Shown: piece by piece, positions 6,468-27,134 of the stretch
Layout of the letters: every line of letters begins with the position of its first letter
Position numbering within the stretch: the first letter of the stretch is position 1
DNA from: a virus
Direction: 5' to 3' (one strand)
DNA length: 27,262 nucleotides
Virus record (IMG/VR): IMGVR_UViG_3300001849_000235
Coordinates: 1-27,262 of that record
Translations under genes and position numbers: made by a program
The notes under the pieces: model-generated
Database searches by the model: none
Seen by the model: the letters and a program-made list of their open reading frames with translations, nothing else
What the model was told of the DNA's origin: nothing

Positions 6468-6470
6468 TGG

Positions 6471-6499: not shown

Positions 6500-6528
6500 G
6501 CACAGACACTAACGCAACGGAGATCCAA

Positions 6529-6846: not shown

Positions 6847-6856
6847 GGAGAAAGCG

Positions 6857-7030: not shown

Positions 7031-7055
7031 CAGACACCGTGTTTGGTGCTATACT
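7027..7055 (+). promoter_or_regulatory. Early sigma70-type promoter
   Basis: TTGACA 7027-7032, 17 bp, TATACT 7050-7055 with extended TGC; the stop codon of the previous gene overlaps the -35 box. Confidence 0.9.
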
Positions 7056-7078
7056 ACACAGACACTAAAGGAGCAGAC

Positions 7079-7285: not shown

Positions 7286-7303
7286 ACATCAACGGAGTCT
7301 ATG

Positions 7304-7381
7304 ATGATCTCACGTGAACAATGGCTAAAATGGATTGAACAGACCTGGCTCTCTTGCCAGGAGAAGGCTTGGAAAGAGTAA
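7304..7381 (+). CDS. 25-aa Trp-rich peptide
   Basis: ATG 7304 has GGAG six nt upstream; ATG 7301 is in frame but too close. The peptide MISREQWLKWIEQTWLSCQE ends AWKE and has four tryptophans in an amphipathic helical pattern. It fills the gap between two genes with spacing typical of this phage (18 nt before, 6 nt after), which supports it, but it could be chance. Confidence 0.5.
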   Translation: MISREQWLKWIEQTWLSCQEKAWKE

Positions 7382-7387
7382 ATCTAA

Positions 7388-7609
7388 ATGAATATCACTA
7401 TCACTGGCCTTACGCCGCATCAGGTCTTGTTTGCAGACATCCTTTGGAAGTGCCAAGGGCGCGATCAAGTAGAAGCCTTCATCTGTAGCTTGCCTCAGCC
7501 CTTTCAAGGTGAAGCTCGCGTAGTTCTAGACATGATGGTAGCCTCTGTCTTTGACAACATCACCGAGACCACAATGGCTCGAGATCTGTTGTCAAAATAC
7601 AACAAATAA
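7388..7609 (+). CDS. Conserved phage protein (ADILWKCQGRDQVEAFI family)
   Basis: A 73-aa protein. The sequence MNITITGLTPHQVLFADILW, KCQGRDQVEAFICSLP and EARVVLDMMVASVFD match a conserved, function-unknown family of small proteins known from myoviruses and prophages. It is predicted helical. The ribosome binding site is weak (GGAAAGAG about 12 nt upstream), so translation may depend on the preceding 25-aa ORF. Confidence 0.8.
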   Translation: MNITITGLTPHQVLFADILWKCQGRDQVEAFICSLPQPFQGEARVVLDMMVASVFDNITETTMARDLLSKYNK

Positions 7610-7613
7610 AAGG

Positions 7614-7642
7614 TTGACAAAGTTTCCAAAAGATCGTATAAT
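7614..7642 (+). promoter_or_regulatory. Early sigma70-type promoter
   Basis: TTGACA 7614-7619, 17 bp, TATAAT 7637-7642. It serves the genes at 7673 and 7861. Confidence 0.9.
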
Positions 7643-7672
7643 ACACAGACACTAACAAAACAGGATCCCGCA

Positions 7673-7861
7673 ATGTATTATCCTCCCGAAATGACAGCAG
7701 AAGAGATACGTGAGTTTGAGCTGGAGATGAACGATCTCATTGATGCTGAGAACAAGGCCTATTACGACAGCCTTGAGCGTGATCACGACGAGCCCTACGA
7801 GCCCGATGCTGACTACAACGACAGCTGGTACGAAGAACAGTACGACCTGGGAGACTATTGA
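7673..7861 (+). CDS. Very acidic 62-aa protein
   Basis: ATG 7673 follows CAGGATCC. More than a third of the residues are Asp or Glu, and tyrosines are frequent (YYDSLERDHDEPYEPDADY). Highly acidic small phage proteins are sometimes DNA mimics that block host nucleases or nucleoid proteins; that is a possibility, not shown here. The stop TGA overlaps the next ATG by one base. Confidence 0.75.
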   Translation: MYYPPEMTAEEIREFELEMNDLIDAENKAYYDSLERDHDEPYEPDADYNDSWYEEQYDLGDY

Positions 7862-8061
7862 TGACTTGGAACAAAGAAGGCCAACACGTGGCCGGCGTAT
7901 ACCTCAAGGCCTACACAGTATCGGGCACTGTCACTGAAAGCCGTGTTCGCTACGGCGGCACGGTCCAGCACACAGTCAAGTTGGACCAGCCCGCTCAGGT
8001 GTTTGGGCGGAGTGCCGAGGTGTTGCTTTTAGACGACACCGACCTATTCCCTATCGGTTGA
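7861..8061 (+). CDS. Conserved phage protein (MTWNKEGQHVAGVYL family)
   Basis: A 66-aa protein starting at ATG 7861, coupled to the upstream gene through TGATG. MTWNKEGQHVAGVYL, RVRYGGTVQHTVKL and VLLLDDTDLFPIG form a small beta-rich domain that I recognise as a widespread uncharacterised phage family. The final Gly and stop codon are supplied by the following promoter's GGTTGACA. Confidence 0.85.
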   Translation: MTWNKEGQHVAGVYLKAYTVSGTVTESRVRYGGTVQHTVKLDQPAQVFGRSAEVLLLDDTDLFPIG

Positions 8062-8086
8062 CAAAGTCTTTGCCCGATGCTATACT
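8058..8086 (+). promoter_or_regulatory. Early sigma70-type promoter, twin of the one at 8307
   Basis: TTGACA 8058-8063, 17 bp, TATACT 8081-8086 with extended TGC. From GGTTGACAAAGTCTTTGC through ACACTAGCAAAAAGGAG it is nearly identical to the promoter at 8307. Confidence 0.9.
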
Positions 8087-8115
8087 ACACAGACACTAGC
8101 AAAAAGGAGACAAAG

Positions 8116-8298
8116 ATGGAACGCAAAGAAATCTTCAAGATGCTTAAAAAGACACATCCGGAGGCTACCAACATCTCCAAAAACGAGTTTGGACTGTGGG
8201 ATGTTGGGATAGAAGACGACTACGAAATTGTTACTTTGACCTATGCGGTAGAAGGCACTAAACTGCGGTTTATTGGCGAGATGACAGTAGAACAATAG
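8116..8298 (+). CDS. Hypothetical 60-aa early protein
   Basis: ATG 8116 follows AAAGGAGAC. It begins MERKEIFKMLKKTHPEATNI and continues FGLWDVGIEDDYEIVTLTYA, a helix followed by a strand-rich segment. The upstream in-frame extension is promoter sequence. It is a single gene between the twin promoters. Function unknown. Confidence 0.7.
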   Translation: MERKEIFKMLKKTHPEATNISKNEFGLWDVGIEDDYEIVTLTYAVEGTKLRFIGEMTVEQ

Positions 8299-8306
8299 AC
8301 TATTGG

Positions 8307-8335
8307 TTGACAAAGTCTTTGCTTGGTGCTATAAT
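8307..8335 (+). promoter_or_regulatory. Early sigma70-type promoter, twin of the one at 8058
   Basis: TTGACA 8307-8312, 17 bp, TATAAT 8330-8335 with extended TGC. Confidence 0.9.
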
Positions 8336-8365
8336 ACACAAACACTAGCAAAAAGGAGCCCTGCA

Positions 8366-8596
8366 ATGCAAACAAATTGCACATTACTTGCAAAAGTTAC
8401 AGTAAACAAACGTCTCAACACCTATAGAATTTTGTTTACTTTTGACAAGTATAATAAAATAACTGTTCGCAATGCTGTTCTCCTTACAGGAGACATTTGC
8501 GGCATTGAAAATGACAATGCAGAGCTTTATATTGAGCAAGCAATTAAAAAGGCTGTTAAAGACTTGCGTTGCACTAGTGCAACAATAGTTGAGTAA
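8366..8596 (+). CDS. Hypothetical early protein
   Basis: A 76-aa protein, ATG 8366 after AAAGGAGC. The sequence is strand-rich at first (CTLLAKVTVNKRLNTYRILF), then a helix near the C-terminus (ELYIEQAIKKAVKDL). It is noticeably more AT-rich than its neighbours, with Asn- and Lys-rich codons, which may mean separate acquisition. No family recognised. Confidence 0.7.
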   Translation: MQTNCTLLAKVTVNKRLNTYRILFTFDKYNKITVRNAVLLTGDICGIENDNAELYIEQAIKKAVKDLRCTSATIVE

Positions 8597-8621
8597 ACTG
8601 TAGGGCTATTGCACACAGCAC

Positions 8622-8650
8622 TTGACACAGAGCGGGTGCTGTGCTATAAT
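8622..8650 (+). promoter_or_regulatory. Early promoter flanked by an inverted repeat
   Basis: TTGACA 8622-8627, 17 bp, TATAAT 8645-8650. CACAGCAC (8614-8621) and GTGCTGTG (8636-8643) form perfect 8-bp arms around the -35 box, so a dimeric regulator could bind here. It is a near-duplicate of the promoter at 9027. Confidence 0.9.
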
Positions 8651-8679
8651 ACACAGACACTAACAAAACGGAGCGAAAC

Positions 8680-9006
8680 ATGCAGAAACTTACACTTGCA
8701 AATATTGACAAAGACACAGACTATGTAGTTTACAATTTTAACTGCGACTTTACTGTAACGACTGCTGGTGACGGCTTGTGGGGCTGTGAAGCAGGACGTA
8801 AAATTAAAGTGACTGGCATTAGCATTGTGCATAATGCATACGAGGCTGACGAGATTAGCACACTGGTAAATGTTACACACGACAGCACGTGGGACATTTA
8901 CACTGACAGCGGCTTTGAGGCTGCTATTAGTGACGCTGTAGGCTTTGATGTTGGCTTTACAGAACAGGGTATGCAGGAAGACGAACACGCGAGTATGGAG
9001 TGCTAA
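8680..9006 (+). CDS. Hypothetical early protein
   Basis: A 108-aa acidic protein with ACGGAGCG before ATG. It is predicted to be beta-rich (YVVYNFNCDFTVTTAGDG, KIKVTGISIVH) and has three cysteines, without a clear metal-binding pattern. No family recognised. It lies between the duplicated inverted-repeat promoters at 8622 and 9027. Confidence 0.7.
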   Translation: MQKLTLANIDKDTDYVVYNFNCDFTVTTAGDGLWGCEAGRKIKVTGISIVHNAYEADEISTLVNVTHDSTWDIYTDSGFEAAISDAVGFDVGFTEQGMQEDEHASMEC

Positions 9007-9026
9007 AAATAACACTAGCACAGCAC

Positions 9027-9055
9027 TTGACACAGAGCGAGTGCTGTGCTATAAT
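9027..9055 (+). promoter_or_regulatory. Early promoter flanked by an 11-bp inverted repeat
   Basis: TTGACA 9027-9032, 17 bp, TATAAT 9050-9055. TAGCACAGCAC (9016-9026) and GTGCTGTGCTA (9041-9051) are perfect 11-bp arms around the -35 and most of the spacer, a candidate operator. Confidence 0.9.
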
Positions 9056-9086
9056 ACACAGACACTAACAAAACAGGAGCGAACCT

Positions 9087-9404
9087 ATGTTAGAGAGCAT
9101 AGACATCTGGGACATCGAAGCAATGAGCTTGAGTGATGCCATTGCCTATGTAGAAGCAGGGCGACTGAACTACAATAAGAACTGTCCAGAAGATCGCCAG
9201 AACTTCCGCCAAACTGTGGAGATGATGGAAGAGTGCCACAGCACCTGCGGCACAGAAGAAGATGCCGCCTGTCTAAATGCCCTGGGCAAGGACTATCAGC
9301 GAGCACTCAAACAGTTTCAAAAGGACTATTTCAAACAGTTAGTACAACAGATAGATCGCAAGAGAGTCAAAGAGATGCAAGCAGATCCCGAGCTGTTTAA
9401 CTAA
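9087..9404 (+). CDS. Helical hypothetical protein
   Basis: A 105-aa protein with CAGGAGCG before ATG 9087. It is nearly all predicted helix, with three cysteines in MMEECHSTCGTEEDAAC and a charged C-terminal helix (DRKRVKEMQAD). Function not recognised. It is a single gene between two related promoters. Confidence 0.7.
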   Translation: MLESIDIWDIEAMSLSDAIAYVEAGRLNYNKNCPEDRQNFRQTVEMMEECHSTCGTEEDAACLNALGKDYQRALKQFQKDYFKQLVQQIDRKRVKEMQADPELFN

Positions 9405-9410
9405 AGAAGG

Positions 9411-9439
9411 TTGACACAGAGCGGGTTCTGTGCTATACT
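9411..9439 (+). promoter_or_regulatory. Early promoter with spacer palindrome
   Basis: TTGACA 9411-9416, 17 bp, TATACT 9434-9439. It is closely related to the promoters at 8622 and 9027, but the outer arm is lost; CACAGA (9415-9420) and TCTGTG (9427-9432) remain as an inner inverted repeat. Confidence 0.9.
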
Positions 9440-9466
9440 ACACAGACACTAACAAAACAGGAGCAT

Positions 9467-9655
9467 ATGATGAAACCCAAATTTGGAACCATTATTTTCA
9501 TTACCGGACTGTTGATTATGTTCGCTGTCGCAGGTGGTGTTGAGAAACTGCCCGCAGAAGCAGGACTTTTTGAATGGGCCTCCCTGATGGGTGGCGCTGC
9601 CTCTGGCATCATTCTGTCGCTGTTAGGTATCCGGCTCTACAAAGAGCAGAACTAA
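9467..9655 (+). CDS. Small membrane protein, two TM segments
   Basis: A 62-aa protein; ATG 9467 or 9470 after CAGGAGC. It has two hydrophobic helices (about residues 7-23 and 39-56) joined by a loop with EKLPAEAGLFEW and a basic end RLYKEQN, predicting an inner-membrane hairpin. Similar MKPKFGTIIFITGLLIM proteins are found in phages, from memory. Function unknown. The gene at 9668 follows on the same mRNA. Confidence 0.75.
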   Translation: MMKPKFGTIIFITGLLIMFAVAGGVEKLPAEAGLFEWASLMGGAASGIILSLLGIRLYKEQN

Positions 9656-9667
9656 CTAGGAGAGACT

Positions 9668-9919
9668 ATGAAATTCCGCTTTATTTCTGATCCTGGACAC
9701 GGCTGGCTTGAAGTGCCGGTTGACTTGGTAGATCGTGCTGGTGTTATTGGTGCAGTATCCAAGTATTCCTATCACAAGGGCGATCTTCTTTATTTGGAAG
9801 AAGACTGCGATGCGAGTCGGTTCTTGCAGGCCCTAAAGAAACAGGGTGTGAACTATGAAATTGAAGAAGTTCATCAGAATCCTACGCCCATCCGCAATTA
9901 CCCTCGTTTTAGGGGTTGA
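9668..9919 (+). CDS. Conserved phage protein (FISDPGHGWLEVP family)
   Basis: An 83-aa protein with TAGGAGAG before ATG. It begins MKFRFISDPGHGWLEVPVDL and then has SKYSYHKGDLLYLEEDCDA, a conserved family I know from phages and mobile elements, with no known function. The C-terminal RFRG ends in a TGA within the next -35 box. Confidence 0.85.
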   Translation: MKFRFISDPGHGWLEVPVDLVDRAGVIGAVSKYSYHKGDLLYLEEDCDASRFLQALKKQGVNYEIEEVHQNPTPIRNYPRFRG

Positions 9920-9944
9920 CAAGTTAGATACACGGTGCTATAAT
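9916..9944 (+). promoter_or_regulatory. Early sigma70-type promoter
   Basis: TTGACA 9916-9921, 17 bp, TATAAT 9939-9944 with extended TGC; the previous stop codon overlaps the -35 box. Confidence 0.9.
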
Positions 9945-9974
9945 ACACAGACACTAACAAAACAGGAGCCAAAA

Positions 9975-10319
9975 ATGAACTTTACCCAAAACCAAATCAA
10001 TACGATCGTTGCAGAAGCCCGAGATGCCGCACACCAGGCTGCTACCAATTACTTCCACACGGTACTACGCGGGCAGGATCAATACGCCTGTGGATTTGCC
10101 TGGGTTGACATCTGCGGTGTTAAAGGCAATACCCGACTGGGTCGGATGCTCAAAGCCGCTGGTGTTGAGCGTAGCGATTACAAGAAGTGTTTTAGTATTT
10201 GGAACCCCAGCGGTTTGCCCCTCCAGAACGTCGATGTCAAAGAGGCCGGTGCCTCTGCGGCTGCTCGGGTGTTTGAAAAATACGGATTCACTGCCTACGC
10301 AGGAAGCCGTTTGGACTAA
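9975..10319 (+). CDS. Conserved phage protein (CGFAWVDICGVKGNTRLG family)
   Basis: A 114-aa protein starting at ATG 9975 after CAGGAGCC; the longer upstream frame crosses the promoter and is rejected. The blocks CGFAWVDICGVKGNTRLG, FSIWNPSGLPLQNVDVKEAG and GFTAYAGSRLD at the C-terminus mark a strongly conserved family of unknown function, seen in many T4-type and other phages. Conservation of the exact C-terminus suggests a functional tail. Confidence 0.85.
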   Translation: MNFTQNQINTIVAEARDAAHQAATNYFHTVLRGQDQYACGFAWVDICGVKGNTRLGRMLKAAGVERSDYKKCFSIWNPSGLPLQNVDVKEAGASAAARVFEKYGFTAYAGSRLD

Positions 10320-10326
10320 TTAATTA

Positions 10327-10355
10327 TTGACAGGGGCCCTGTGCCCCTGTATAAT
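10327..10355 (+). promoter_or_regulatory. Promoter with embedded operator-like palindrome
   Basis: TTGACA 10327-10332, 17 bp, TATAAT 10350-10355. The spacer is filled by a perfect inverted repeat, ACAGGGGC (10330-10337), 5 nt, GCCCCTGT (10343-10350), overlapping the end of the -35 and the first base of the -10. A dimeric protein bound here would block the polymerase. It drives the AAA+ ATPase operon. Confidence 0.85.
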
Positions 10356-10387
10356 GCACACTCAACAACAGACAAAAGGAAACACAT

Positions 10388-11269
10388 ATGGCTCGTTCAA
10401 GCGCCGCTCGTAAGCCCAGCAAGGGCACCGTTATCAGTAACGTCATTGAGCTAGACACTGAAGCAATTGCCGCACGAGAAGCGGCTGTCCAGAAAAAGAC
10501 TGACGCAGAAATCCTAGAGCACCTTAATCAGCGTTTTGACATTTTGACTGAGATGACCAAGGCTGTCAAACGTGGCGATGTACGTGCTATGATTGTGTCA
10601 GGCCCCCCAGGTGTGGGCAAAAGCCATAACGTTGAGGCAGTCTTGCAAAAGGATGGCCTGTTTGACACACTGGGCGAGCGCAAGCCCAAGTTCGAAGTAG
10701 TCAAGGGTGCCATGAGCTCAATTGGACTCTACAGCAAACTCTACGAGTTCTCGGACGCTAAACATGTTTTAGTCTTTGATGACTGTGACGACATCCTGCA
10801 GGAAGAGCTGAGCTTGAACATTCTCAAGGGTGCATTGGATAGCTCAAATCGTCGTTTCATCAGCTGGAACACAGACAGCCGTATACTTCGCAGTGAAGGC
10901 ATTCCTGACAGGTTTGAGTTCAAGGGTGCGGCCATATTCATTACCAACATCAAGTTTGAGCACGTTCGCAGTAAGAAGCTCAAGAGCCACTTGGATGCAC
11001 TGGAAAGCCGTTGCCACTACATGGACTTGGAAATGGATACTCAGCGTGAAAAGATGCTGTGGATACACAATATTGTCAGTCGCGGCATGTTGGATCGATA
11101 TGAGTTTGAACCCGCAACGGTGCAGACTGTGCTGGACTACATTGCCCAGCACAAGGACCGCTTACGTGAGCTGAGCCTGCGTATGGTCCTAAAGATTGCG
11201 GATCTGCGTAAGGCTTTTCCCAACAGCTGGACTGTGATGGCTTCTACGACTTGTATGAAGCGAGGTTGA
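10388..11269 (+). CDS. AAA+ family ATPase
   Basis: A 293-aa protein with AAAAGGAAAC before ATG. Walker A is GPPGVGKS at residues 72-79, Walker B LVFDDCDD at about 128-135, and a sensor-1-like segment AIFITNIKF at 182-190 with Asn187. These mark a P-loop AAA+ ATPase. The N-terminal 50 residues are charged and helical. It is not similar to the T4 clamp loader gp44 by sequence features I can see, so I leave the role open: remodelling of a nucleoprotein or regulatory complex is likely. It heads a three-gene operon with its own palindrome-containing promoter. Confidence 0.85.
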   Translation: MARSSAARKPSKGTVISNVIELDTEAIAAREAAVQKKTDAEILEHLNQRFDILTEMTKAVKRGDVRAMIVSGPPGVGKSHNVEAVLQKDGLFDTLGERKPKFEVVKGAMSSIGLYSKLYEFSDAKHVLVFDDCDDILQEELSLNILKGALDSSNRRFISWNTDSRILRSEGIPDRFEFKGAAIFITNIKFEHVRSKKLKSHLDALESRCHYMDLEMDTQREKMLWIHNIVSRGMLDRYEFEPATVQTVLDYIAQHKDRLRELSLRMVLKIADLRKAFPNSWTVMASTTCMKRG

Positions 11270-11271
11270 GC

Positions 11272-11466
11272 ATGTTGGCCCGAATAGTCCTATACCTAAC
11301 TCTGGGCTTCCTAATAGGCACCATGGGCGCACATTGGGACACTTGGCAGTTCTGGTGCATCCTAGGACTATTCTGGGCCGTAGAGCAAAACACCCGACTA
11401 GAACTATTAGATCAACTTAAACACGAGCTAGAACAGCTACGCCGTAGGTATCCCAACAATGACTAA
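11272..11466 (+). CDS. Small membrane protein with coiled-coil tail
   Basis: A 64-aa protein, ATG 11272 two nt after the ATPase stop, with GCGAGG upstream. Two hydrophobic segments (about residues 4-19 and 26-38) are followed by a charged amphipathic helix LELLDQLKHELEQLRRRYP likely to form a coiled coil in the cytoplasm. The small size and early context suggest a host-membrane effector or a partner of the ATPase. Function unknown. Confidence 0.7.
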   Translation: MLARIVLYLTLGFLIGTMGAHWDTWQFWCILGLFWAVEQNTRLELLDQLKHELEQLRRRYPNND

Positions 11467-11704
11467 TCTATCACAGTGCCAGTGGATAGGCCCGGAACAA
11501 ACAGGCCCCACATATCTTATGAGTTGCTCTTGCCCTAGCCTAGAGGGCCGTAACTACTGTAGTGATCACCTCTACAAAGTCTATCAGGAAGGTACAGCAC
11601 TACGCAAGCGTCGGAAAGATCTACGCATAGCCAATTCAGTATGGGATCTAGAACAACTATTTCGAGAAGTTGTGGAGGAACTGGAGTCAGAAGGTCTGAT
11701 CTGA
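11459..11704 (+). CDS. Cys-rich conserved protein, probable zinc binding
   Basis: An 81-aa protein overlapping the previous gene by 8 nt. The first half, CQWIGPEQTGPTYLMSCSCP followed by NYCSDHLYKVY, has Cys/His spacing suited to a zinc site (Cys7, Cys23/25, Cys34, His37). The CQW...YC..H layout recalls GcrA-like proteins, but the similarity is too short to assign. The C-terminus is helical and acidic. It ends the early plus-strand block. Confidence 0.75.
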   Translation: MTNLSQCQWIGPEQTGPTYLMSCSCPSLEGRNYCSDHLYKVYQEGTALRKRRKDLRIANSVWDLEQLFREVVEELESEGLI

Positions 11705-11720
11705 AAGGGTGGGGTGGTCT

Positions 11721-11758
11721 GGTGCTACTGCTAGCAACACAAGCTGCTAGCTAGCACC
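11721..11758 (+). terminator. Large imperfect hairpin closing the early block
   Basis: GGTGCTA (11721-11727) pairs with TAGCACC (11752-11758), and an inner TAGCA pairs with TGCTA. It starts 16 nt after the last early gene. No immediate T-run follows, so it may be a processing or mRNA-protecting stem rather than a true intrinsic terminator. The 212-bp gap to the next gene otherwise contains only the AT-rich late-promoter module. Confidence 0.4.
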
Positions 11759-11856
11759 GCATGCCAAAAGTTCTCTCATTTCTCTCATTTTCTTCACCCC
11801 TTAAAAACCTTGACTTAGAGTAAAACCGGTGGGGCAGAAATCTCCAAACCTTGCAG

Positions 11857-11921
11857 AATTTTTTTTTGCAAAATTTTGCCCTACTATAAGACCGGTTTTT
11901 ACCAAATAAATACGGGGTGCG
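11857..11921 (+). repeat. AT-rich late-promoter module, copy A
   Basis: It begins AATTTTTTTTTGCAAAATTTT, then GCCCT, then GGTTTTTACCAAATAAATAC and GGGGTGCGA. The same order of blocks occurs at 12337-12405. Both copies end in the GTG start codon of a gene. Confidence 0.8.
11905..11912 (+). promoter_or_regulatory. Late promoter motif AATAAATA
   Basis: AATAAATA is one mismatch from the T4 late consensus TATAAATA, which is read by polymerase with the phage late sigma and clamp. Only 4 nt separate it from GTG 11917. Confidence 0.6.
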
Positions 11922-12330
11922 ATCATTTAGACTCACTCTGTTTTTCACACTCACACTCACACTCATGCTCTTGCTTTCAGCCTGTACCAGTACTGGCACC
12001 ACTAGTCCGTCAGCAGTTCCCTCTGCTGCCACTGCTGCGGCTCTGGACACTGCTACCACTGCGCTGGCCTTAGCACAGGGAGCTCGCGAGCTCAATCCCT
12101 TGGGTTTTTGGGGAGTGTTAGCGGGCAAGATCACCTACTTTGCTCTAGCGCCCCCTAGCATTAAACAAACTTATGAGCGTACAGCCAGTCAAATATGGAC
12201 CACGGCTGCTTTGCACAATTTACTACAGCTGGCGCTGGGCGGCACTGTGCCTGTGCCATTTACTCTGGGTTTGAGCTTTGTTCTAGTTGAAGGATGGTTT
12301 AACCATTGGTCGCAGAGGCCCAGTCCCTAG
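11917..12330 (+). CDS. Phage lipoprotein
   Basis: A 137-aa protein with a GTG start at 11917. The signal peptide is MRSFRLTLFFTLTLTLMLLL followed by the lipobox LLSAC at about 19-23, so signal peptidase II would cleave before Cys23. The GTG is needed to complete the signal. The mature part is Ala/Thr-rich, then has hydrophobic segments (NPLGFWGVLAGKITYFALAP, VPFTLGLSFVLVEGW). The TLTLTL run is encoded by a short TCACAC repeat. Lipoproteins of phages can act in superinfection exclusion; that is possible but unproven here. The start has no room for a Shine-Dalgarno. Confidence 0.8.
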   Translation: MRSFRLTLFFTLTLTLMLLLSACTSTGTTSPSAVPSAATAAALDTATTALALAQGARELNPLGFWGVLAGKITYFALAPPSIKQTYERTASQIWTTAALHNLLQLALGGTVPVPFTLGLSFVLVEGWFNHWSQRPSP

Positions 12331-12336
12331 GTCAAA

Positions 12337-12405
12337 AAATTTTTTTTTGCAAAATTTTAGCCCTTATATACCCAGGTTGGTTTTACCAAATAAATACAGG
12401 GTGCG
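12337..12405 (+). repeat. AT-rich late-promoter module, copy B
   Basis: It shares with copy A (11857-11921) the nine-T run followed by GCAAAATTTT, then GCCCT, GGTTTTACCAAATAAATAC and GGGTGCGA, at nearly the same spacing. Confidence 0.8.
12389..12396 (+). promoter_or_regulatory. Late promoter motif AATAAATA
   Basis: Identical to the motif at 11905 and at the same 4-nt distance from a GTG start (12401). Confidence 0.6.
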
Positions 12406-12652
12406 AGCTCTCAATGATTTTCCACTTACTCTGCCCTATACAGCGGTAGTTCCTTGGCCTTTGGTGGAACGCCTTGGTCAGCCAGACTGGATCAGTGCTG
12501 TGTCGTCAGTGACCACATGGTTGGAATGTTCAATAGGGCCACACTACAGTCACTGGGTTTGGAGCACTTGGAACCAGCATCAAACGCACATGTGTTCGGT
12601 ATCGTTTGCTCGTGAGCCTGACACCACTCTGTTCTTACTGCGTTGGGGTTGA
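12401..12652 (+). CDS. Hypothetical late protein
   Basis: An 83-aa protein. The open frame extends upstream to 12287, but that part overlaps the lipoprotein gene; GTG 12401 is chosen because it sits in exactly the same place relative to the repeat module as the lipoprotein GTG. It is Trp-rich (six in the central third and C-terminus) with a strand-rich look. No family recognised. The end LLRWG with TGA resembles the promoter-derived ends of the early genes, but no promoter follows. Confidence 0.65.
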   Translation: MRALNDFPLTLPYTAVVPWPLVERLGQPDWISAVSSVTTWLECSIGPHYSHWVWSTWNQHQTHMCSVSFAREPDTTLFLLRWG

Positions 12653-17399: not shown

Positions 17400-18092
17400 T
17401 TAGATACTTAGTTCTTGGTCGTGTAACCGATCAATAAGTCTGGTCATACCGTCTATTACCTGATCATTGCGTAGGCTTTTATAGACTAGGTTTGGCATAC
17501 TGAACTCGCCTGCGGCGGTGGCTAGACCTTTCTTGCGATAGGTTCGCAGTAATTTTAAGGCCTTTCTGCAGACCTCTAAATCCCCGGTCATAGTAGCTCG
17601 CCGTAGAATTTTTTGCCAAACTGCGACCCAATGAGCCAGTTCTTGCTCGTCGATTTTGGGAACATCCCGACTGGGTTTGCGTAGCCATCGATCTTGACTT
17701 ATGCTAAACATGCCCGCAGTAACTCCGGGTGTGCGATGATCTTCGATGTAGAGTTCTACAGGTATACCATAGATTTCTAACTGATACTGTCGCTTGTAGA
17801 GCAGACGTTTGCTGTCAAATAGTTCAGCAGTTTCACGCTCGCAGCGAACGCTATCAAAGTCTGCTACAATGTGCAGATCGATGTCCGAATTTTTGGTATA
17901 GGTATAGTTAACATTACCACCGGTAATTACTATATCTCGGACGTCTACAGGCACTTCAACAAACTCTAAGAAGTCTTCGGCCATGCGTAGTAGAGCACCA
18001 CGCACATCGGGTTTGAGGTGATCATGGTCCCAAATCTTGGGATTTAGTACGGTATTTTGACCTATCGGTTCGGCGTATTCGGTTTGTATCAT
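17400..18092 (-). CDS. Nucleotidyltransferase-fold protein
   Basis: A 230-aa protein. IVITGGNVNYTYTKNSDIDL at residues 54-73 matches the Pol-beta/MNT nucleotidyltransferase signature GGxxN...SDIDLxI, giving the metal-binding aspartates Asp70 and Asp72; a third acidic residue may lie in VELYIEDH. The C-terminal half is helical with a basic segment. Such proteins are conserved in T4-type phages of aquatic bacteria. The acceptor (RNA, protein or small molecule) is unknown. It starts 6 nt after a TATAAATA late motif. Confidence 0.75.
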   Translation of the reverse strand: MIQTEYAEPIGQNTVLNPKIWDHDHLKPDVRGALLRMAEDFLEFVEVPVDVRDIVITGGNVNYTYTKNSDIDLHIVADFDSVRCERETAELFDSKRLLYKRQYQLEIYGIPVELYIEDHRTPGVTAGMFSISQDRWLRKPSRDVPKIDEQELAHWVAVWQKILRRATMTGDLEVCRKALKLLRTYRKKGLATAAGEFSMPNLVYKSLRNDQVIDGMTRLIDRLHDQELSI

Positions 18093-18123: not shown

Positions 18124-18678
18124 ATGACGAAGAAAAAATATCCAGGTTATCTATTGGTTGCTAATCCCAACAATCCCAGAGATGAACTTAGCAAGAGTGT
18201 GCTATTGGTAGCAAACCATACAGGCAATTTGGGTATAGGACTACAGATTAATAATCCCATGGAAGACATTAATCTAGAAACAGTGGCCAACAACATAGGC
18301 ATGGCCTGTTCTCGAAATGATCCTTTATGGTACGGTGGTAATATTGCTACAAATAAGATACATGTAGTTCATAGCACGGATTGGAAGGGCATGACCACTG
18401 CCAAACTCAGTGATGAAATCTGTGTGACCAATGATGTCAGTGTGTTGGCTGCTATCAGCCTTGGTGAAGGTCCTAAATTCTTTAGAGCCTGTGCGGGTTA
18501 TTGGCTCTGGGAAGATGGACGTCTTGATCGTATGCTAGATCCCAAAGATCGAGAAGAAACTCACAAGTGGGAAGTTACCCCTGCAACATTAGAAAGCGTG
18601 TTCAACGGAGAAGGACCTGATCAATGGCGTGATTGCCTAGACAAAGCCGCCAAGTATCAGGTCAGTGCTTGGTTTTAA
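18124..18678 (+). CDS. AlgH/YqgE (UPF0301)-like protein
   Basis: A 184-aa protein starting at ATG 18124; ATG 18115 is also in frame. GYLLVANPNNPRDELSKSVL, then GNLGIGLQINNPM, YGGNIATNKIHVVHS and AGYWLWEDGRLDRML follow the order of conserved blocks in bacterial AlgH/YqgE (G.LLvA.P, Gl.iN.p, GGp...vLH, GyagW..GQLe), although the GQLE block is changed to GRLD. The family's biochemical function is not settled. It is the only plus-strand gene in the 13.2-22 kb region and its stop overlaps the helicase stop. Upstream GGTAAATA is a poor late motif. Confidence 0.75.
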   Translation: MTKKKYPGYLLVANPNNPRDELSKSVLLVANHTGNLGIGLQINNPMEDINLETVANNIGMACSRNDPLWYGGNIATNKIHVVHSTDWKGMTTAKLSDEICVTNDVSVLAAISLGEGPKFFRACAGYWLWEDGRLDRMLDPKDREETHKWEVTPATLESVFNGEGPDQWRDCLDKAAKYQVSAWF

Positions 18679-20141
18679 TCCCGTTCCGGGTTAAGATTAC
18701 TGATCATAGTTCTAATCAGAGCACCATTGCTAGGCTTAGCCGGCAGACTCTTTATACTGGATCCCTGTTTAGGATCAACTTCTATGATTTCTCCAGTTTC
18801 CGGATCAGTGGTTGTACTCACAGTACTGGTACGTTTTAGACTGCTATAGATTCCACCACCCGGTCCCTGTGGCCGCCCGCCTCCCTGATTGAGGCTGGGC
18901 TGTGCATCTCCCTCGTCACCTAGATCTGTAATTCTTAATGTGTCCAAATTAAACTCTAGATCTACTTTTTGTCCAACGCCACTGCTACTACGTGTCTTCA
19001 TAAACTGTATTTGATAACGTCCACGTTCTTTCATGGCACGGCTGGTAAAGATACCAATAACATTATCTGCGGTCATGATCTTACTCAGCCCGCCACTGAT
19101 ATGGCTGTGGTCAAACTCGATTTCTTCAACCGCCGAACGATTCAACTGACTGGCTGTTACAGTAATACATTGTGTCTCCATTGCTAGATTTCGAATCTCT
19201 TCCGACACATATTTGTCTTTAATAAACAGATCACTGGGCGATACTTTCACACTTAACGGCATCATTAAATCCAGGTAATCTATCAATAAAACGTCTGGTT
19301 TCATGCCGGTTTTGACCTGGTATTCTTTAAGATATGCGCGAATATCGTTGCAATTTTTTCCTGAGGGCATATACTTGATCTGTAGGTGCCCGCTCTTCTT
19401 TTCTAACATCTTAACTTTGAGTTCAACATCGTCGATGTTCTTAAAAATCTCTCTAGTTGGGATTCCAGTCATCATACTGTCTAAGCGCATACTGACTAGG
19501 TTTTCACTAAGTTCGAATGTTAGATAGATTACATTCAGTCCTGTCAAAGCCCAATTAATGCCTAGATTAGCCAAGAACAAACTCTTACCGCCACCCGATG
19601 CTGCTGCAAAGATATTAAGTTCTCCGCGATTAAATCCACCGTAGAGTTTCTTGTCAACGCTGGGCCATCCGGTACTGATTTGTCCGTTGCTACTTTTCAA
19701 TCTTTCCAGTCGACCCCTTGGATCTTCAAAGTAGTTTGTGCCCATGTCCTTGTTCAAACTAATCTGTATAGCGTCCTTGATCAGTTTTTCCACAGGATTA
19801 TAGTTACCATCTTCAAGCAGATCACTGCTCTTGATAATTGCACGTTCTAGACCTTTGTGTCGACTGAATGTTTCAAATTCATCCATGAGCCAGTTATAGT
19901 TTTCTTCAGGTAGCTTTACTGGTTGAAAATCTATTCCAGTAGCCGCGTTCACGATCTGCGTTTCGGGCATGATCTTGTATTCATCTACATATTTTGTGAT
20001 AAATTCTGCAGAAGCCCTGAGACGCTGATCAAAGTTCTCTGGATCAAAAATGTTTTGACAGCGAGCAAAGGTTACTGCATCGCTGAGAAACATTTCGATA
20101 TACAGTTTCTGCATATCATAATTGTAATTTGGTTTATTCAT
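18675..20141 (-). CDS. 41: Replicative DNA helicase, T4 gp41/DnaB-like
   Basis: A 488-aa protein, close to the ~475 aa of T4 gp41. Residues about 168-195 contain GGFNRGELNIFAAASGGGKS, with Walker A ending at Lys186-Ser187; Walker B is PDVLLIDYLDLM at about 282-293; TASQLNRSAVEE fits the later RecA-core motif. The N-terminal ~130 residues are the helical primase-interacting domain, and the C-terminus is a Gly/Pro/Ser-rich linker plus tail. It unwinds DNA 5' to 3' at the fork. Its ATG overlaps the primase stop (ATGAATAA), as expected for partners in the primosome. Confidence 0.93.
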   Translation of the reverse strand: MNKPNYNYDMQKLYIEMFLSDAVTFARCQNIFDPENFDQRLRASAEFITKYVDEYKIMPETQIVNAATGIDFQPVKLPEENYNWLMDEFETFSRHKGLERAIIKSSDLLEDGNYNPVEKLIKDAIQISLNKDMGTNYFEDPRGRLERLKSSNGQISTGWPSVDKKLYGGFNRGELNIFAAASGGGKSLFLANLGINWALTGLNVIYLTFELSENLVSMRLDSMMTGIPTREIFKNIDDVELKVKMLEKKSGHLQIKYMPSGKNCNDIRAYLKEYQVKTGMKPDVLLIDYLDLMMPLSVKVSPSDLFIKDKYVSEEIRNLAMETQCITVTASQLNRSAVEEIEFDHSHISGGLSKIMTADNVIGIFTSRAMKERGRYQIQFMKTRSSSGVGQKVDLEFNLDTLRITDLGDEGDAQPSLNQGGGRPQGPGGGIYSSLKRTSTVSTTTDPETGEIIEVDPKQGSSIKSLPAKPSNGALIRTMISNLNPERD

Positions 20142-21126
20142 CTAAATTCTCTAGTTTTTTCTTTATTAGATTTATTTTTATCTCGCCCGAGACTCTGTAG
20201 TGTAAGATTGTGGCTAGCACATAGAGTCTACCGTATTTCTTTACAGCATCGGCCACGTCTTTAAGGTCGTCGCCCCAGGGTGGCAGGCTCACAGACCATT
20301 CATTCTTTATGGCGTGCTTTAACATCTTACTGCCCGGTCGATCTCGATCAGGTACGCATATAACTTCTCGTCCTAGTGCATTGATTCGTGCAACTTGAGT
20401 GTCGTTTGGCTCGTTGGTCATAATGGCTACACCATCTACAGCTATGGCATCAAATTGTCCTTCTACGACTATGACGTATGCCCTATCACGAGTCTGACGA
20501 TCTAGGTTAAACACATAACCACTTTGGCTGTCTGTAAGATACTTAGGTTTACCTTCTGTGACCTTGCGTCCAGTATACCCTACTATCTTTCCATCTTGGT
20601 AAAAAGGTATCAGCAATCTATCTCGATAACCAGGTGCCGAGCTCCAGTGCCAGTTGTACCATTCCCATTCCATTCCCCTTGACAGTAGGTACTCAACTAC
20701 GGCTATTAGATCAGGATCGTCACTGCCTGTGTTTAACCAATCGACTATGGATAACGAATTATCTGGTAAAGGTATCTCTTTTAATGTAAAGTTGAATGCC
20801 TTGCTTTCTTGTGGCATGCTCTCTTGATACTTAAGAGCAACTATGCCTAGCTTACCTATGTCGTTGTCGCCTAGCCCTAGCCATTTAAACAGCATCTTTG
20901 TGTTGCCGCTTAGAAGCTTACCCGGTGACCAGCCTGCCTTATAACTGCAATTGAAACAGTGATAGGTCCATGCTTCACCGTCAATCTTTATACCACCGCG
21001 CCTGCGTCGATCGGCTTTTTCACCTCTATGGTGGCAGCAGACAGCGTTGAAGCTTTCCCATCCCCCGGTGGTGATTTTACGACCCTGCGGTAGTAGAGCC
21101 AAAAGTGTAGACTGTATTTCGTTCAC
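20134..21126 (-). CDS. 61: DNA primase, T4 gp61-like
   Basis: A 330-aa protein (T4 gp61 is ~342 aa), GTG start at 21126. The N-terminal zinc-binding site is CCHH at residues 30-33 with CFNC at 57-60. The TOPRIM domain shows VIVVEGQFDAIAVDG (Glu219, Asp223) and VICVPDRDRPGSKM for the second acidic motif. It makes RNA primers for lagging-strand synthesis with the helicase. It is co-transcribed with the helicase gene. The start is preceded by TAAAATAAAGT inside the end of the upstream gene, without an obvious Shine-Dalgarno. Confidence 0.92.
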   Translation of the reverse strand: MNEIQSTLLALLPQGRKITTGGWESFNAVCCHHRGEKADRRRRGGIKIDGEAWTYHCFNCSYKAGWSPGKLLSGNTKMLFKWLGLGDNDIGKLGIVALKYQESMPQESKAFNFTLKEIPLPDNSLSIVDWLNTGSDDPDLIAVVEYLLSRGMEWEWYNWHWSSAPGYRDRLLIPFYQDGKIVGYTGRKVTEGKPKYLTDSQSGYVFNLDRQTRDRAYVIVVEGQFDAIAVDGVAIMTNEPNDTQVARINALGREVICVPDRDRPGSKMLKHAIKNEWSVSLPPWGDDLKDVADAVKKYGRLYVLATILHYRVSGEIKINLIKKKLENLDE

Positions 21127-21134: not shown

Positions 21135-21977
21135 TTAGCATCTATAAAGTACTTTGTCAAAATTTCCGTAGTAAGCAGGATTGTCATTATTACTTTCTGC
21201 TGGAGCAGTATCTGGTATAAAGGTAAACCGAACATAGCTGAAGATACCGTTGAAGTTAAAGTAATCTATTCCGGTAAAACCATTGTAAGTTTGGTCGGCA
21301 ATAGTTACGTATCGGTTAAAGCTAGCCGGGCTGTTGTACAAGGTGCCCTCAACTAACAAGCGACCTTTAAAATTGGTCATGTAGGCTGCTGCGGTGTGCA
21401 GGGCTGTGTTGCTGTTATACTCTGGATAGGCGTAGATGTTGCCGCTTCTGTGAATATATTTGTGTAGGTCGTCATCGTAGACCTTTTCAAAAGCAACTAC
21501 TTCTTGGCTGGGTTGAAGTACAGGATACACATCTTGCGATAGTTTTAAAAATCCGGCAACTCCATAGTATGTATTGCTATAAGCGGGTAGGTAAGTACCG
21601 TCGGTGTCTAATTTTTTAACACTAAACTGGTAGTCGCTAACGTCGAGGTCCATTGTATCGCTTTCGTTGAATGTTAGCTCTGCTAGTCCTCTAGTAGCAA
21701 ATGTTGAACCGTCATCTAACACCGTTAACTGTTTTTCTAAGAGTAGTCTTTGATTGGTAGCATCAAACAAGCTGAATACAAACACATCATCTTCACTAAT
21801 TGGTATACGTTTTTGATCGCTGTTTTTGAATTGAATACGAACTTTGTTCTTTATACCTTTTTGTATTTTTAGGTCGCGTTGGTACATAACTCGATTGGCT
21901 CCTTTTACTATGGGGTCCAAATCTAATATAATATCGAGTGCGTTGGGATATAAATAGATTGGTAAACTTTGCATCAT
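21135..21977 (-). CDS. Conserved beta-rich protein, possible virion protein
   Basis: A 280-aa protein starting at ATG 21977 or 21974; the upstream TTG would be third choice. Strand-rich throughout with many aromatic residues (IYLYPNALDIILDLDPIVKG, YQFSVKKLDTDGTYLPAYSN, YNGFTGIDYFNFNG). The composition and a late promoter motif four nt upstream suggest a late structural protein, perhaps a neck, baseplate or fibre accessory component, but I recognise no specific family. It ends 8 nt before the primase start, so the replication genes may also be read from this late promoter. Confidence 0.65.
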   Translation of the reverse strand: MMQSLPIYLYPNALDIILDLDPIVKGANRVMYQRDLKIQKGIKNKVRIQFKNSDQKRIPISEDDVFVFSLFDATNQRLLLEKQLTVLDDGSTFATRGLAELTFNESDTMDLDVSDYQFSVKKLDTDGTYLPAYSNTYYGVAGFLKLSQDVYPVLQPSQEVVAFEKVYDDDLHKYIHRSGNIYAYPEYNSNTALHTAAAYMTNFKGRLLVEGTLYNSPASFNRYVTIADQTYNGFTGIDYFNFNGIFSYVRFTFIPDTAPAESNNDNPAYYGNFDKVLYRC

Positions 21978-21981
21978 CAAG

Positions 21982-21989
21982 TATTTATT
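21982..21989 (-). promoter_or_regulatory. Late promoter motif AATAAATA
   Basis: One mismatch to the late consensus, 4 nt before ATG 21977, and the same AATAAATA form as the modules at 11905 and 12389. Confidence 0.6.
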
Positions 21990-21994
21990 TTATA

Positions 21995-22378
21995 ATGATT
22001 TCACCTAGTGTGTTCCAAGACAATTACCCGTTCATATCCTGCATAAAGAGCAATGAGGTCGAATATGTAGGAATTATTATCAACCTAGATAATTTCGTTA
22101 CCAGCATATATGACATAACAACTCTACGGAATGAGGACGAAAAGAAGGTATTTCTAGAAATGGGAGATGTTTGGTGGTGGGAAAGTAACAGAAAAATCCC
22201 CATCAATATCTTTTTGAAAAAAGAAATGCAGTTGTTCAGATACGCTATTAAGACATTTAATAGCAAGGATGTAGAGCTTATTTTTGGCCCTACGGTCAAT
22301 CTAAGCGAGATTGCAGAGAAACGCATCAAACGCAAACTGATACAACTAGTCCGAAATCCTAGGAGTATCCGTAGCTAA
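21995..22378 (+). CDS. Conserved phage protein of unknown function
   Basis: A 127-aa protein; ATG 21995 (MISPSVFQDNYPFIS) is preferred because the upstream extension covers the divergent gene's start. Blocks PSVFQDNYPFISCIKSNEVE, DVWWWESNRKIPINIFLKKE and LIFGPTVNLSEIAEKRIKRK look highly conserved; similar proteins are present in T4-type phages of cyanobacteria and other aquatic bacteria, by memory. The basic C-terminus suggests nucleic-acid contact. It has no Shine-Dalgarno; the ATG directly follows TTTTATA. Confidence 0.7.
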   Translation: MISPSVFQDNYPFISCIKSNEVEYVGIIINLDNFVTSIYDITTLRNEDEKKVFLEMGDVWWWESNRKIPINIFLKKEMQLFRYAIKTFNSKDVELIFGPTVNLSEIAEKRIKRKLIQLVRNPRSIRS

Positions 22379-22937
22379 TCTGCTCACAGATCAGGTTCAT
22401 ATGTACCACAATAGCGACTGCATAACTATGGGCATGGCTCTTCTTAAAATGGTATTCACCGTTAGTCGGCTTCTCCCATATCGAATCCATAATACTTTTC
22501 TTCGTCCCATCTTGTAGGTGCCGCTTCCCGGGGCGGATTAAGGCCAGGCACACGGCCAGATCTTCTATACTCCTCGGCTTCTGCTTCCGTAGCAAGTCTC
22601 CATATCCGCTTATGTGAAACAATAAATTCGTGAAACTGTCGTTCTGTAGTAGATCCCATAGTGGTTCAGTCTCCATTAATTGAATGAGGTGCGCTTCATC
22701 TTTTATGCCGTTATATATACTGACATTTAAGAAGTCAATTTTAAAATAGTTACGTTCTTCAGCTTCTTTATAGTCTATGCTTGCTGTGCCAGTTAGTGGA
22801 TTAACTGGAATAGAAGTACAATATACACCGGTATTATGTTTTTTAAAAATACCATTTGTTTCGATTGCCGCAGGAACATGCTTGATCAAGTCAAGTATTT
22901 TTGTTCTATCTGGAAAATCTAAATCAATATCTGGCAT
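22359..22937 (-). CDS. Miniature DnaE/C-family polymerase palm-like protein
   Basis: A 192-aa protein. MPDIDLDFPD at the very N-terminus matches the palm motif PDxDxDF of DnaE/PolC (E. coli MPDFDVDF, catalytic Asp401 and Asp403); YFKIDFLNVS at residues 64-73 matches KFDFLGL (catalytic Asp555); KPRSIEDLAVCLALIRPG at 120-137 and FKKSHAHSYAVA at 164-175 match finger blocks. All are in the right order but about 60 residues instead of 150 separate the aspartates, and PHP, thumb, most fingers, beta-binding and tail domains are absent. Whether it polymerises is unknown. Phages of this type normally carry a B-family polymerase, so this may be an accessory or inhibitor protein. Confidence 0.8.
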   Translation of the reverse strand: MPDIDLDFPDRTKILDLIKHVPAAIETNGIFKKHNTGVYCTSIPVNPLTGTASIDYKEAEERNYFKIDFLNVSIYNGIKDEAHLIQLMETEPLWDLLQNDSFTNLLFHISGYGDLLRKQKPRSIEDLAVCLALIRPGKRHLQDGTKKSIMDSIWEKPTNGEYHFKKSHAHSYAVAIVVHMNLICEQISYGYS

Positions 22938-23815: not shown

Positions 23816-24207
23816 ATTTCTCCACTTTCTGCCAGTTTAAGAATTAGGCTGTAGTGCTCATAGGCTTTTTTAACAGCCGGATAATTATCTTTCAAAAACT
23901 TTTCTCGTTCTTTCTGTTCCATTAGATGTTCGAAAAGACCATAGTGTCCATTGACTCGCATATTATTAAATACCTGCGATTCAAATTCAGCTATTTTGTG
24001 CAATTCGCTTTCTGCTATTTCAAGAGTGTAAAGAGGTTGTGTTTCAAACCTAACAAGCTCATCTCTGATTACCTTATTGTAGTCACGAGCATCTGTAAAA
24101 TATTTTACATTTAGAGGTGGGTGAACATAGGCTCGCTTATTAGTGTCAATAATTTTTACACTATGTTGTCTACACCATTCTTCGACTATTTTTTTCTGAT
24201 CAATCAA
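23812..24207 (-). CDS. Hypothetical helical protein with TTG start
   Basis: The frame opens with TTG at 24213, but AGGAGG at 24219-24214 lies directly against it, whereas the next in-frame TTG at 24207 has an ideal 6-nt spacing, giving 131 aa. The protein is largely helical (ELHKIAEFESQVFNNMRVNG, EQKEREKFLKDNYPAVKKAY), with an N-terminal segment EEWCRQHSVKIIDTNKRAY. Not recognised. It overlaps genes on both sides. The weak start codon behind a perfect Shine-Dalgarno may set its level. Confidence 0.7.
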   Translation of the reverse strand: MIDQKKIVEEWCRQHSVKIIDTNKRAYVHPPLNVKYFTDARDYNKVIRDELVRFETQPLYTLEIAESELHKIAEFESQVFNNMRVNGHYGLFEHLMEQKEREKFLKDNYPAVKKAYEHYSLILKLAESGEI

Positions 24208-24895
24208 TTCCAACCTCCTGACATATTTCTTTTACAAGGGCAACGTCTGCAGGGACTTCTCTAAATTTACGAACCCAGAAAGGTACATCAAATGCTGGTG
24301 CAATTATGTCTAACTGTTCATCGTTCATTTTTTGAATCATCTCTTTGCCCGTTACCGTATTTAAAATAACCCACGAGCTTAGGTTTCCATTTCTAATATC
24401 GTATACAGCCTTGTTTAGGCTTGCATACAAAAAATAGTGATTAAAGTTTGCCTGGTGCTCGTCCCCCCATTCCATCATTGTTTGTAGTGTTCTTTGTATT
24501 GCGCTTTCAACAGGCTCAGTTTTTAGCATTTCAAAAAGATATCGATCATAGAGTTCGTCCTTACACCAATGATCTAGCTTGACTCCACTTTTTATAACAT
24601 AGTCAATAAATTTTTCTGGATAGATAGGATTCACATTGTTAACAAAACTACCAAATTTTACAAAGGCGTTATAGTAGGCTGTGTCACAGAATTCATCATA
24701 GGTTTTTTGTTTTGTTGCGCCCTGTGCCAGTTGCCACCAACGATTAAACGCCATGTATCCTGCCTGTACACGCTTTTCATCTCGTTGTAGGGCCCGCCGC
24801 TTTCTTTCACACATATGAGCAACTAGAGTTTTTTCCTGCATAAAACTCTTACCGCAATGATTACAACGATGGGGTTGCGCTACTAGGTCAATCAC
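24200..24895 (-). CDS. Zinc-finger protein (C2HC) of conserved phage type
   Basis: A 231-aa protein with a GTG start at 24895 overlapping the upstream stop. Residues 11-29, CNHCGKSFMQEKTLVAHMC, form a classical zinc-finger with Cys11, Cys14, His27 and Cys29 as ligands, followed by a basic helix ERKRRALQRDEKR. The remaining 180 residues are helical without known motifs (FNRWWQLAQGATKQKTYDEF). Its place in this operon suggests a nucleic-acid transaction; it is not otherwise recognised. Confidence 0.75.
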   Translation of the reverse strand: MIDLVAQPHRCNHCGKSFMQEKTLVAHMCERKRRALQRDEKRVQAGYMAFNRWWQLAQGATKQKTYDEFCDTAYYNAFVKFGSFVNNVNPIYPEKFIDYVIKSGVKLDHWCKDELYDRYLFEMLKTEPVESAIQRTLQTMMEWGDEHQANFNHYFLYASLNKAVYDIRNGNLSSWVILNTVTGKEMIQKMNDEQLDIIAPAFDVPFWVRKFREVPADVALVKEICQEVGID

Positions 24896-25356
24896 TCGTA
24901 TTCTTTCCTTTGTTTTTTATCAAAACCCATTTGATCAAACAGTTCTTCTTTGTCCTGATCTGTCATTAATGATGCTAGTAATTTAATATCTGATAGTTTC
25001 CGTGCAGGATATAATTCGGCCAATAATTTTTCAATCTTGTTAGCTTTTTCTTTTTTTCCTGCCGCAAGATAGGGGTGAAAACATGGAATACCTGCACCAC
25101 AGGCAGCAAACAATTTCCATAACAAGGCCTTGTGATTCTTACTTAAATCCCAGTGATTTTTGTTAATGAGCTCGTTGGTCATTTCAAGAAACCATTCTTG
25201 TATTTCCCTGTCACCTTGAACATTACTAACGTATCTCATTAAGACATAGGGGCTAAATGCTTTTCTTTCTTCGTCAGATAACTTATCATAGAAGTCGTAG
25301 ACTTTACGATCCACGGCATTGAGTTCTCTTTTAATGTCAAGTTTTGCTGTTGCCAT
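24892..25356 (-). CDS. Conserved protein, possibly gp62-like clamp-loader subunit
   Basis: A 154-aa helical protein. FSPYVLMRYVSNVQGDREIQ, then FLEMTNELINKNHWDLSKNH and LLWKLFAACG have the layout I associate with small clamp-loader subunits (gp62) of aquatic T4-type phages: a Pro-Tyr-x-x-x-Arg block, an MTNE/MN block and a long helical end with DQDKEELFDQMG. The similarity is of pattern, not of many identical residues, so the call is tentative. No gp44 gene is visible next to it. ATG 25356 lies inside the previous gene's end. Confidence 0.5.
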   Translation of the reverse strand: MATAKLDIKRELNAVDRKVYDFYDKLSDEERKAFSPYVLMRYVSNVQGDREIQEWFLEMTNELINKNHWDLSKNHKALLWKLFAACGAGIPCFHPYLAAGKKEKANKIEKLLAELYPARKLSDIKLLASLMTDQDKEELFDQMGFDKKQRKEYE

Positions 25357-26353: not shown

Positions 26354-26417
26354 CAGTTGCCGGTCGCGATACTTGCAATATCCACCGGCTCTAACAGTTT
26401 ATAAGGAACTATCAGCG

Positions 26418-27134
26418 ATGTATTTACAAAACAAGTACACTAGTGTTTATAATAGCATTATTGAAAGAGCAAAGTCAAGGATTTTGCCAAAAGAAATCTA
26501 TACAGAAAATCACCATATTATTCCAAAAAGCCTAAGTGGAACTGACGACTCTGCTAATTTAGTAAAGTTGACTGCTCGAGAACATTTTATATGTCATCTT
26601 CTTTTACCAAAAATGGTCACTGGTATCTACAAAAGAAATATGTGTTTTGCATTATGGTCTATGATTACAATGGATCATTCTACAGCGAGAACTCGATATA
26701 AAATAAATTCTAAAATGTTTCAGGCAATAAAGACGCAAGTTGCCCAAGCAAAATCAGACCTACATAAAGGCAAAGTAGTATCAAAAGAAACCCGTAAGAA
26801 AATGTCAGAAGCACGTAAAAAACACGCCGGCCCAAATAAAGGTAAAGCAATGTCTGAAGGGCAGAAGCAAAAACTATCTAAAGCACATACTGGAAAGGTT
26901 GTTGCCCAATCAACAGTTGATAAGATATTAGAATCTCGAAAAGGATATAAACATTCTGAAGAAACTAAAAGGAAGATTTCATCCAGACAGATAGGAAAAA
27001 AAATGCCCGCTAAAACAGAAGAACAAAAACGAGTTGTTTCAGAAAAATTAAAAGGTAGAGTATTTTCTGAAGAAACTAAAAGGAAAATGTCAGAGTCTCG
27101 TAGCGCATATTGGGATGCTAAACGGGCCACCTGA
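26418..27134 (+). CDS. HNH homing endonuclease with NUMOD3 repeats
   Basis: A 238-aa protein, ATG 26418 with AAGGA about 10 nt upstream. ENHHIIPKSLSGTDDSANLV with AREHFICH at about residues 31-65 is an HNH nuclease core. The C-terminal 100 residues contain repeats of the NUMOD3 DNA-binding type: (S/K)KETRKKMSEARK, SEETKRKISSRQIGKK, SEETKRKMSESRS. Such free-standing enzymes (Mob/Seg-like in T4) cut phage DNA lacking them and spread by gene conversion. It is on the opposite strand to its neighbours and abuts the next gene's 3' end with zero spacing, typical of an invading element. Confidence 0.88.
   Translation: MYLQNKYTSVYNSIIERAKSRILPKEIYTENHHIIPKSLSGTDDSANLVKLTAREHFICHLLLPKMVTGIYKRNMCFALWSMITMDHSTARTRYKINSKMFQAIKTQVAQAKSDLHKGKVVSKETRKKMSEARKKHAGPNKGKAMSEGQKQKLSKAHTGKVVAQSTVDKILESRKGYKHSEETKRKISSRQIGKKMPAKTEEQKRVVSEKLKGRVFSEETKRKMSESRSAYWDAKRAT

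Follow-up and report, generated by a model that had tools for sequence, protein, structure and literature searches.

The 192-aa protein encoded on the minus strand of a 27,262-nucleotide stretch of viral DNA (IMG/VR record IMGVR_UViG_3300001849_000235; hereafter the window) is almost certainly the C-terminal part of a split, minimal version of the bacterial replicase subunit Pol III alpha (DnaE), and the window itself comes from a large, T4-related environmental phage. We think it probable, from sequence and gene context, that this C-half combines with a separately encoded N-half into a heterodimeric minimal DnaE with one active site, which would carry out short, distributive synthesis at the phage replication fork; this overall judgement blends near-certainty about the identity of the C-half, good confidence that the pair is catalytic and an evenly balanced view of the fork role. 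The family and its split nature are already known, since Iyer et al. (2021; PMC7824862) described group 2.2 jumbo phages as having, in addition to a family-B polymerase, a ‘phage-specific minimal version’ of Pol III alpha that consists of two standalone proteins encoded at distant loci, the N-terminal one NTP-binding and the C-terminal one binding Mg and template. That 2021 paper was the only one found in a literature search for later or bench work on the split enzyme. Added here are conservation at the level of single residues, the precise position of the break, the replication context of both halves, a co-occurrence count and one smaller phage. The gene for the C-half and the motifs that it encodes are as follows.

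22359..22937, minus strand: assigned C-half of the split mini-DnaE, 192 aa, family phrog_11778; DNA- and metal-binding palm half with a reduced finger domain
22914..22934, minus strand: PDIDLDF; Asp3 = E. coli D401 and Asp5 = D403 (metal ligands), Asp7 = D405 (DnaE marker); 136/136 clusters, alignment to E. coli DnaE
22821..22841, minus strand: KHNTGVY, equivalent of KHAGGVV (E. coli 510-516), with H34 invariant; read from the sequences
22728..22742, minus strand: KIDFL; Lys66 = K553, Asp68 = D555 (third metal ligand); 137/137 clusters, profile alignment
22524..22544, minus strand: ALIRPGK, finger motif (E. coli ALFRPGP 636-642); R135, P136 and K138 invariant
22419..22448, minus strand: FKKSHAHSYA, O-helix of the fingers; His168 = steric gate H760, Lys166 = K758

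The open reading frame runs from 22937 to 22359 and begins MPDIDLDF. An in-frame stop lies only four codons 5' of its ATG, so that, barring a non-standard start, this is the true N-terminus and the catalytic motif lies at the very beginning of the protein. The plus-strand frame over 22359-22937 is full of stops, and a 65-aa ORF at 22462-22659, in another frame of the same strand, had no family match and was taken as spurious. The original prediction that DnaE palm and finger motifs occur in the correct order within 192 residues was borne out: PDIDLDF (residues 2-8), KIDFL (66-70), ALIRPG (132-137) and KKSHAHSYA (165-173) are all present and follow the order of bacterial DnaE. Its description of them as ‘DnaE/PolC’ signatures holds for the C-family core and can be narrowed to DnaE, because D405 is conserved in DnaE and replaced by Asn in PolC (PMC3919608), and the equivalent Asp7 is Asp in 136/136 clusters, which rules out a PolC-type identity. 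The same alignment amends the proposed catalytic set of Asp5, Asp7 and Asp68. Asp5 (D403) and Asp68 (D555) stand; Asp7 is the DnaE marker D405, and the ligand that had been missed is Asp3 (D401), the roles of D401, D403 and D405 being those given in PMC3919608.

A search of the PDB with the single C-half sequence gave nothing significant (best E=0.032), so profiles were needed to place the protein. It matched phrog_11778 (‘DNA polymerase’, 197 positions) over residues 3-186 with E=2.3e-62, and each of the 95 aligned C-half sequences matched that profile too; since the match covers the whole ORF and about 140 distinct homologs retain the DnaE motifs, the motifs are not there by chance. Comparison of the C-half profile with E. 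coli DnaE aligned the motif residues, but taken alone this match is weak (probability 33%). An AlphaFold2 model of the C-half, built from the 95-sequence alignment, had a mean pLDDT of 93.3 and a pTM of 0.81, with predicted strands at 4-8, 21-27, 30-39 and 67-71 and, starting at residue 166, a long helix at the C-terminus; D3/D5 and D68 thus lie at or in two of the predicted strands. The 13 PDB structures that resemble the predicted fold best all belong to Pol III alpha (the match after them has E=1.1), with modest Foldseek TM-scores of 0.39-0.53 and rmsd of 5-12 A. Likewise, the best 13 matches of the N-half fold are all Pol III alpha or PolC, with weak E-values.

Homologs proved to be abundant among phages. 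Relatives of the window C-half were found by tblastn in 92 phage records, 87 of them covering at least 80% of its length, and also on hundreds of IMG/VR contigs; carriers among the 92 include 121Q, RaK2, CBB, GAP32, PA5oct, Paride, Atu_ph07, XacN1 and SCTP-2. All 92 are less than 60% identical to the window protein, and identity to any annotated-collection phage reaches about 50% at most, while one contig matches the window at 99.8% identity across 8.9 kb. A plasmid search for the C-half returned no match. A search of bacterial and archaeal genomes returned 11 loci, all on contigs from MAGs or uncultured bins, and as these resemble binned phage DNA, no cellular family was found.

Conservation was computed over 137 C-half clusters and 59 N-half clusters at 80% identity. 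In the C-half, D3, D5, D7, H34, K66, D68, R135, P136, K138, H168 and Y172 are invariant, with one gap in each of three columns; His168, the equivalent of the H760 steric gate, which touches the incoming dNTP at its sugar (PMC8485763), is found in 137/137 clusters. In the N-half, GRGS, R109 and E113 are invariant across the 59 clusters. The median dN/dS is 0.16 for the C-half (670 pairs) and 0.24 for the N-half (177 pairs), and the length of the C-half is constant (165-257 aa, stop to stop). We conclude that purifying selection acts on both halves. The original prediction that the catalytic aspartates are kept by selection and not left over from decay is upheld, as homologs keep them in 136-137 clusters; its word ‘relic’ has to be abandoned, because a protein with an invariant active site and low dN/dS behaves neither as a relic nor as a decoy.

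What the same prediction calls a mini-palm protein is not self-contained: it is one of two separately encoded halves, and the nucleotide-binding GRGS loop is absent from its chain, being found in the separate N-half in 59/59 clusters. The N-half is phrog_11127, a protein of about 170 aa that occurs in every relative genome examined; it was not found in the 27-kb window, which is itself a fragment. By profile alignment the N-half corresponds to E. coli DnaE 321-393, ending at FLN393, and the window C-half starts at the equivalent of M399. As the FL motif is no more than two residues from the end in 74 of 87 N-half ORFs, the break is both precise and constant, and it falls in the loop that leads into the catalytic DxD strand. 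No ORF joining the two was found among 219 distinct C-halves and 86 distinct N-halves.

The chain is also much reduced inside and at its end. By direct sequence comparison, E. coli F406-K510, about 100 residues that include the thumb, is represented by about 25 residues; between the RPG motif and the O-helix, the roughly 115 residues of E. coli have shrunk to about 28; and nothing of DnaE past the O-helix remains. Neither half matched the Pfam PHP or HhH families and both are too short to contain them; PHP and tandem HhH domains are near-universal in bacterial C-family polymerases (PMC3919608).

Both halves are encoded among replication genes. The conserved neighbours of the C-half gene in the window are listed here, with the number of C-half loci that have them.

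18675..20141, minus strand: DnaB/gp41-type helicase (62 of 87 loci, 69 of which are long enough)
20134..21126, minus strand: DnaG-type primase (78/87 loci)
21135..21980, minus strand: virion structural protein-like gene, phrog_14467 (82/87 loci)
21938..22378, plus strand: small convergent gene, phrog_11637, overlapping the 3' end of the C-half gene (86/87 loci, always on the opposite strand)
24200..24895, minus strand: zinc-finger protein, phrog_11058, conserved upstream neighbour (84/87 loci)
24892..25356, minus strand: phrog_11758 protein, a conserved upstream neighbour and possible gp62-like small subunit of the clamp loader

The primase, helicase, structural and convergent genes keep a constant relative strand across the 87 loci, and the same gene order is seen in the annotated records of 121Q, Phosso, Paride, XaC1 and GAP32. 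The context of the N-half gene was read from 121Q, Atu_ph07, Paride, Phosso, Vibrio 2.275.O and CBB: a gp44-like clamp loader, or an AAA/P-loop ATPase in its place, follows a few genes downstream. With the C-half by primase and helicase and the N-half near gp44, both halves therefore sit with fork proteins. In Slicko01 the N-half, gp44, a putative gp62, the zinc-finger gene, the C-half, primase and helicase all lie on one strand within about 16 kb. The Slicko01 counterpart of the phrog_11758 protein (L361 4452-4880) comes directly after gp44 and matches phrog_225 (clamp loader) with E=3e-4, and this protein is a candidate for the missing gp62-like small subunit of the clamp loader; the CBB paper (PMC5259590) describes phage CBB as having no gp62. 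Elsewhere in the window, an HNH homing endonuclease with NUMOD3 motifs (26373-27134, plus strand) lies at the edge of the minus-strand replication cluster and an NTP_transf_2 nucleotidyltransferase-domain protein, phrog_36119 (17400-18092, minus strand), just past its helicase end. A long run of small ORFs, mostly of 60-150 aa, occupies 22-12650 on the plus strand, where an AAA ATPase, phrog_1250, is encoded at 10388-11269.

In 24 large records searched with profiles, the N-half turned up in all, and the C-half and a family-B polymerase in 23 each. A single 191-kb contig, probably a fragment, has the N-half and neither of the others. Slicko01, at 141 kb not a jumbo phage, carries both halves and a family-B polymerase, so that 24 of 25 phage-size records have all three and the split system reaches beyond jumbo phages. 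The half-genes are between 11 kb (Slicko01) and about 225 kb (Phosso) apart in named phages, and their co-occurrence partly reflects shared ancestry. The prediction that this is not the main, family-B polymerase of the phage agrees with these counts, as relatives carry that enzyme too; none was found among the ten main genes scanned in the window, a genome fragment. We also noted that the family-B polymerase gene is in two frames in several phages (Slicko01 L361/L363, Atu_ph07 and Paride; for example 578+322, 418+578 and 825+379 aa), and that the N-half ORF of the 191-kb contig (L107 2518-3447; 310 aa) has about 138 extra residues ahead of the N-half domain.

Our preferred reading is a two-chain enzyme. 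The C-half would contribute Asp3, Asp5 and Asp68 as metal ligands, a conserved lysine, the RPG motif of the fingers and the O-helix that carries the steric-gate histidine; the GRGS loop, which holds the phosphates of the incoming nucleotide, would come from the N-half, encoded elsewhere in such genomes. Since the chain is broken in the loop before the catalytic DxD strand, the halves most likely dock and rebuild one active site, and we are fairly confident that the pair is catalytic. Such an enzyme should be distributive, because the PHP, thumb, HhH, OB and clamp-binding parts and most of the fingers are absent; a C-family enzyme with no thumb and gutted fingers may fail to hold primer-template. 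As both genes lie among replication genes and the family-B replicase is kept, the enzyme would most likely make short stretches of DNA at the fork, by primer extension or gap filling before or after the family-B enzyme acts; this placement is a reasoned guess to which we would give an even chance.

Other functions can be weighed against this one. The halves could form an active nucleotidyltransferase other than a fork polymerase, for example one for end-tailing or repair or one that works on RNA or protein, as the loss of the thumb and most DNA-binding parts beside invariant catalytic residues, and the presence of a family-B replicase, would allow; we consider this unlikely given that the O-helix and its deoxynucleotide-selecting steric-gate histidine (PMC8485763) are kept and that both genes are found in the company of primase, helicase and clamp-loader genes. 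It is similarly improbable that the palm and finger pieces are a catalytically dead scaffold that binds DNA, nucleotides or replisome proteins and only regulates the family-B replicase. So extreme a reduction could leave one half or both persisting as protein-protein modules in a replication cluster, but a scaffold does not require the metal ligands, K553, H760 and GRGS to stay invariant over such great divergence. The host-takeover decoy of the original prediction, which would bind host clamp, tau or nucleotides and halt host replication, found no support and is very unlikely: resemblance to host DnaE speaks for it and nothing else, while by length and alignment the protein lacks the C-terminal parts with which DnaE binds clamp and tau, the catalytic residues are invariant, and phages of very different hosts keep the gene within a conserved replication cluster, and on the missing parts and this context we reject it. 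Decay of a captured host dnaE, suggested by the shortness and the missing PHP, HhH and OB domains, is refuted by the constant length in 92 phage records and hundreds of viral contigs, the median dN/dS of 0.16 and the invariant active site.

If the halves of the proposed heterodimer do reassemble into an active enzyme, it would be much the smallest of the C-family polymerases and would delimit the part of the bacterial replicase that catalysis needs. It would also place a bacterial-type and an archaeal/eukaryotic-type polymerase in one replisome. By analogy with the handover from eukaryotic Pol alpha to Pol delta, one may tentatively imagine a two-polymerase fork in which a heterodimeric core of the C family, with about 365 residues much smaller than any bacterial replicase of its class, extends primers for the family-B replicase, also outside jumbo phages (Slicko01). 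With a precisely placed break, a conserved partner and conserved residues, the pair lends itself readily to a two-protein reconstitution test.

The closest known system is the minimal, two-piece Pol III alpha found in jumbo phages of group 2.2 (PMC7824862), which belongs to the same family and shares the size and, going by the relatives of the window, probably also the two-way split at distant loci and the company of a family-B polymerase; the window differs in that its sequence is new and the partner lies outside the contig fragment. The truncated ‘Pol III alpha’ proteins CBB_328 (PMC5259590) and Atu_ph07 gp316 (PMC6102473) are N-half partners in this same system, the opposite half of the split enzyme, and the available portions of the CBB and Atu_ph07 papers make no link to a C-half. 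Four PHROGs, 13169 (463 positions), 7513 (461), 11165 (782) and 12219 (823), are DnaE-related, much shorter than full DnaE and mostly match one half only, a hint at further split DnaE lineages. With bacterial DnaE (E. coli Pol III alpha; PDB 2HNH, 4IQJ) the window protein shares the palm strands with D401/D403/D405 and K553/D555, the RPG motif and the H760 O-helix, but the split enzyme has two chains in place of one, about 365 residues in all against 1160, no PHP, thumb, HhH, OB or clamp-binding parts, and fingers shorter by about 90 residues. PolC and the full-length phage DnaE (phrog_405) have the same C-family catalytic core but are full-length single chains, and PolC has Asn at the position of Asp7.
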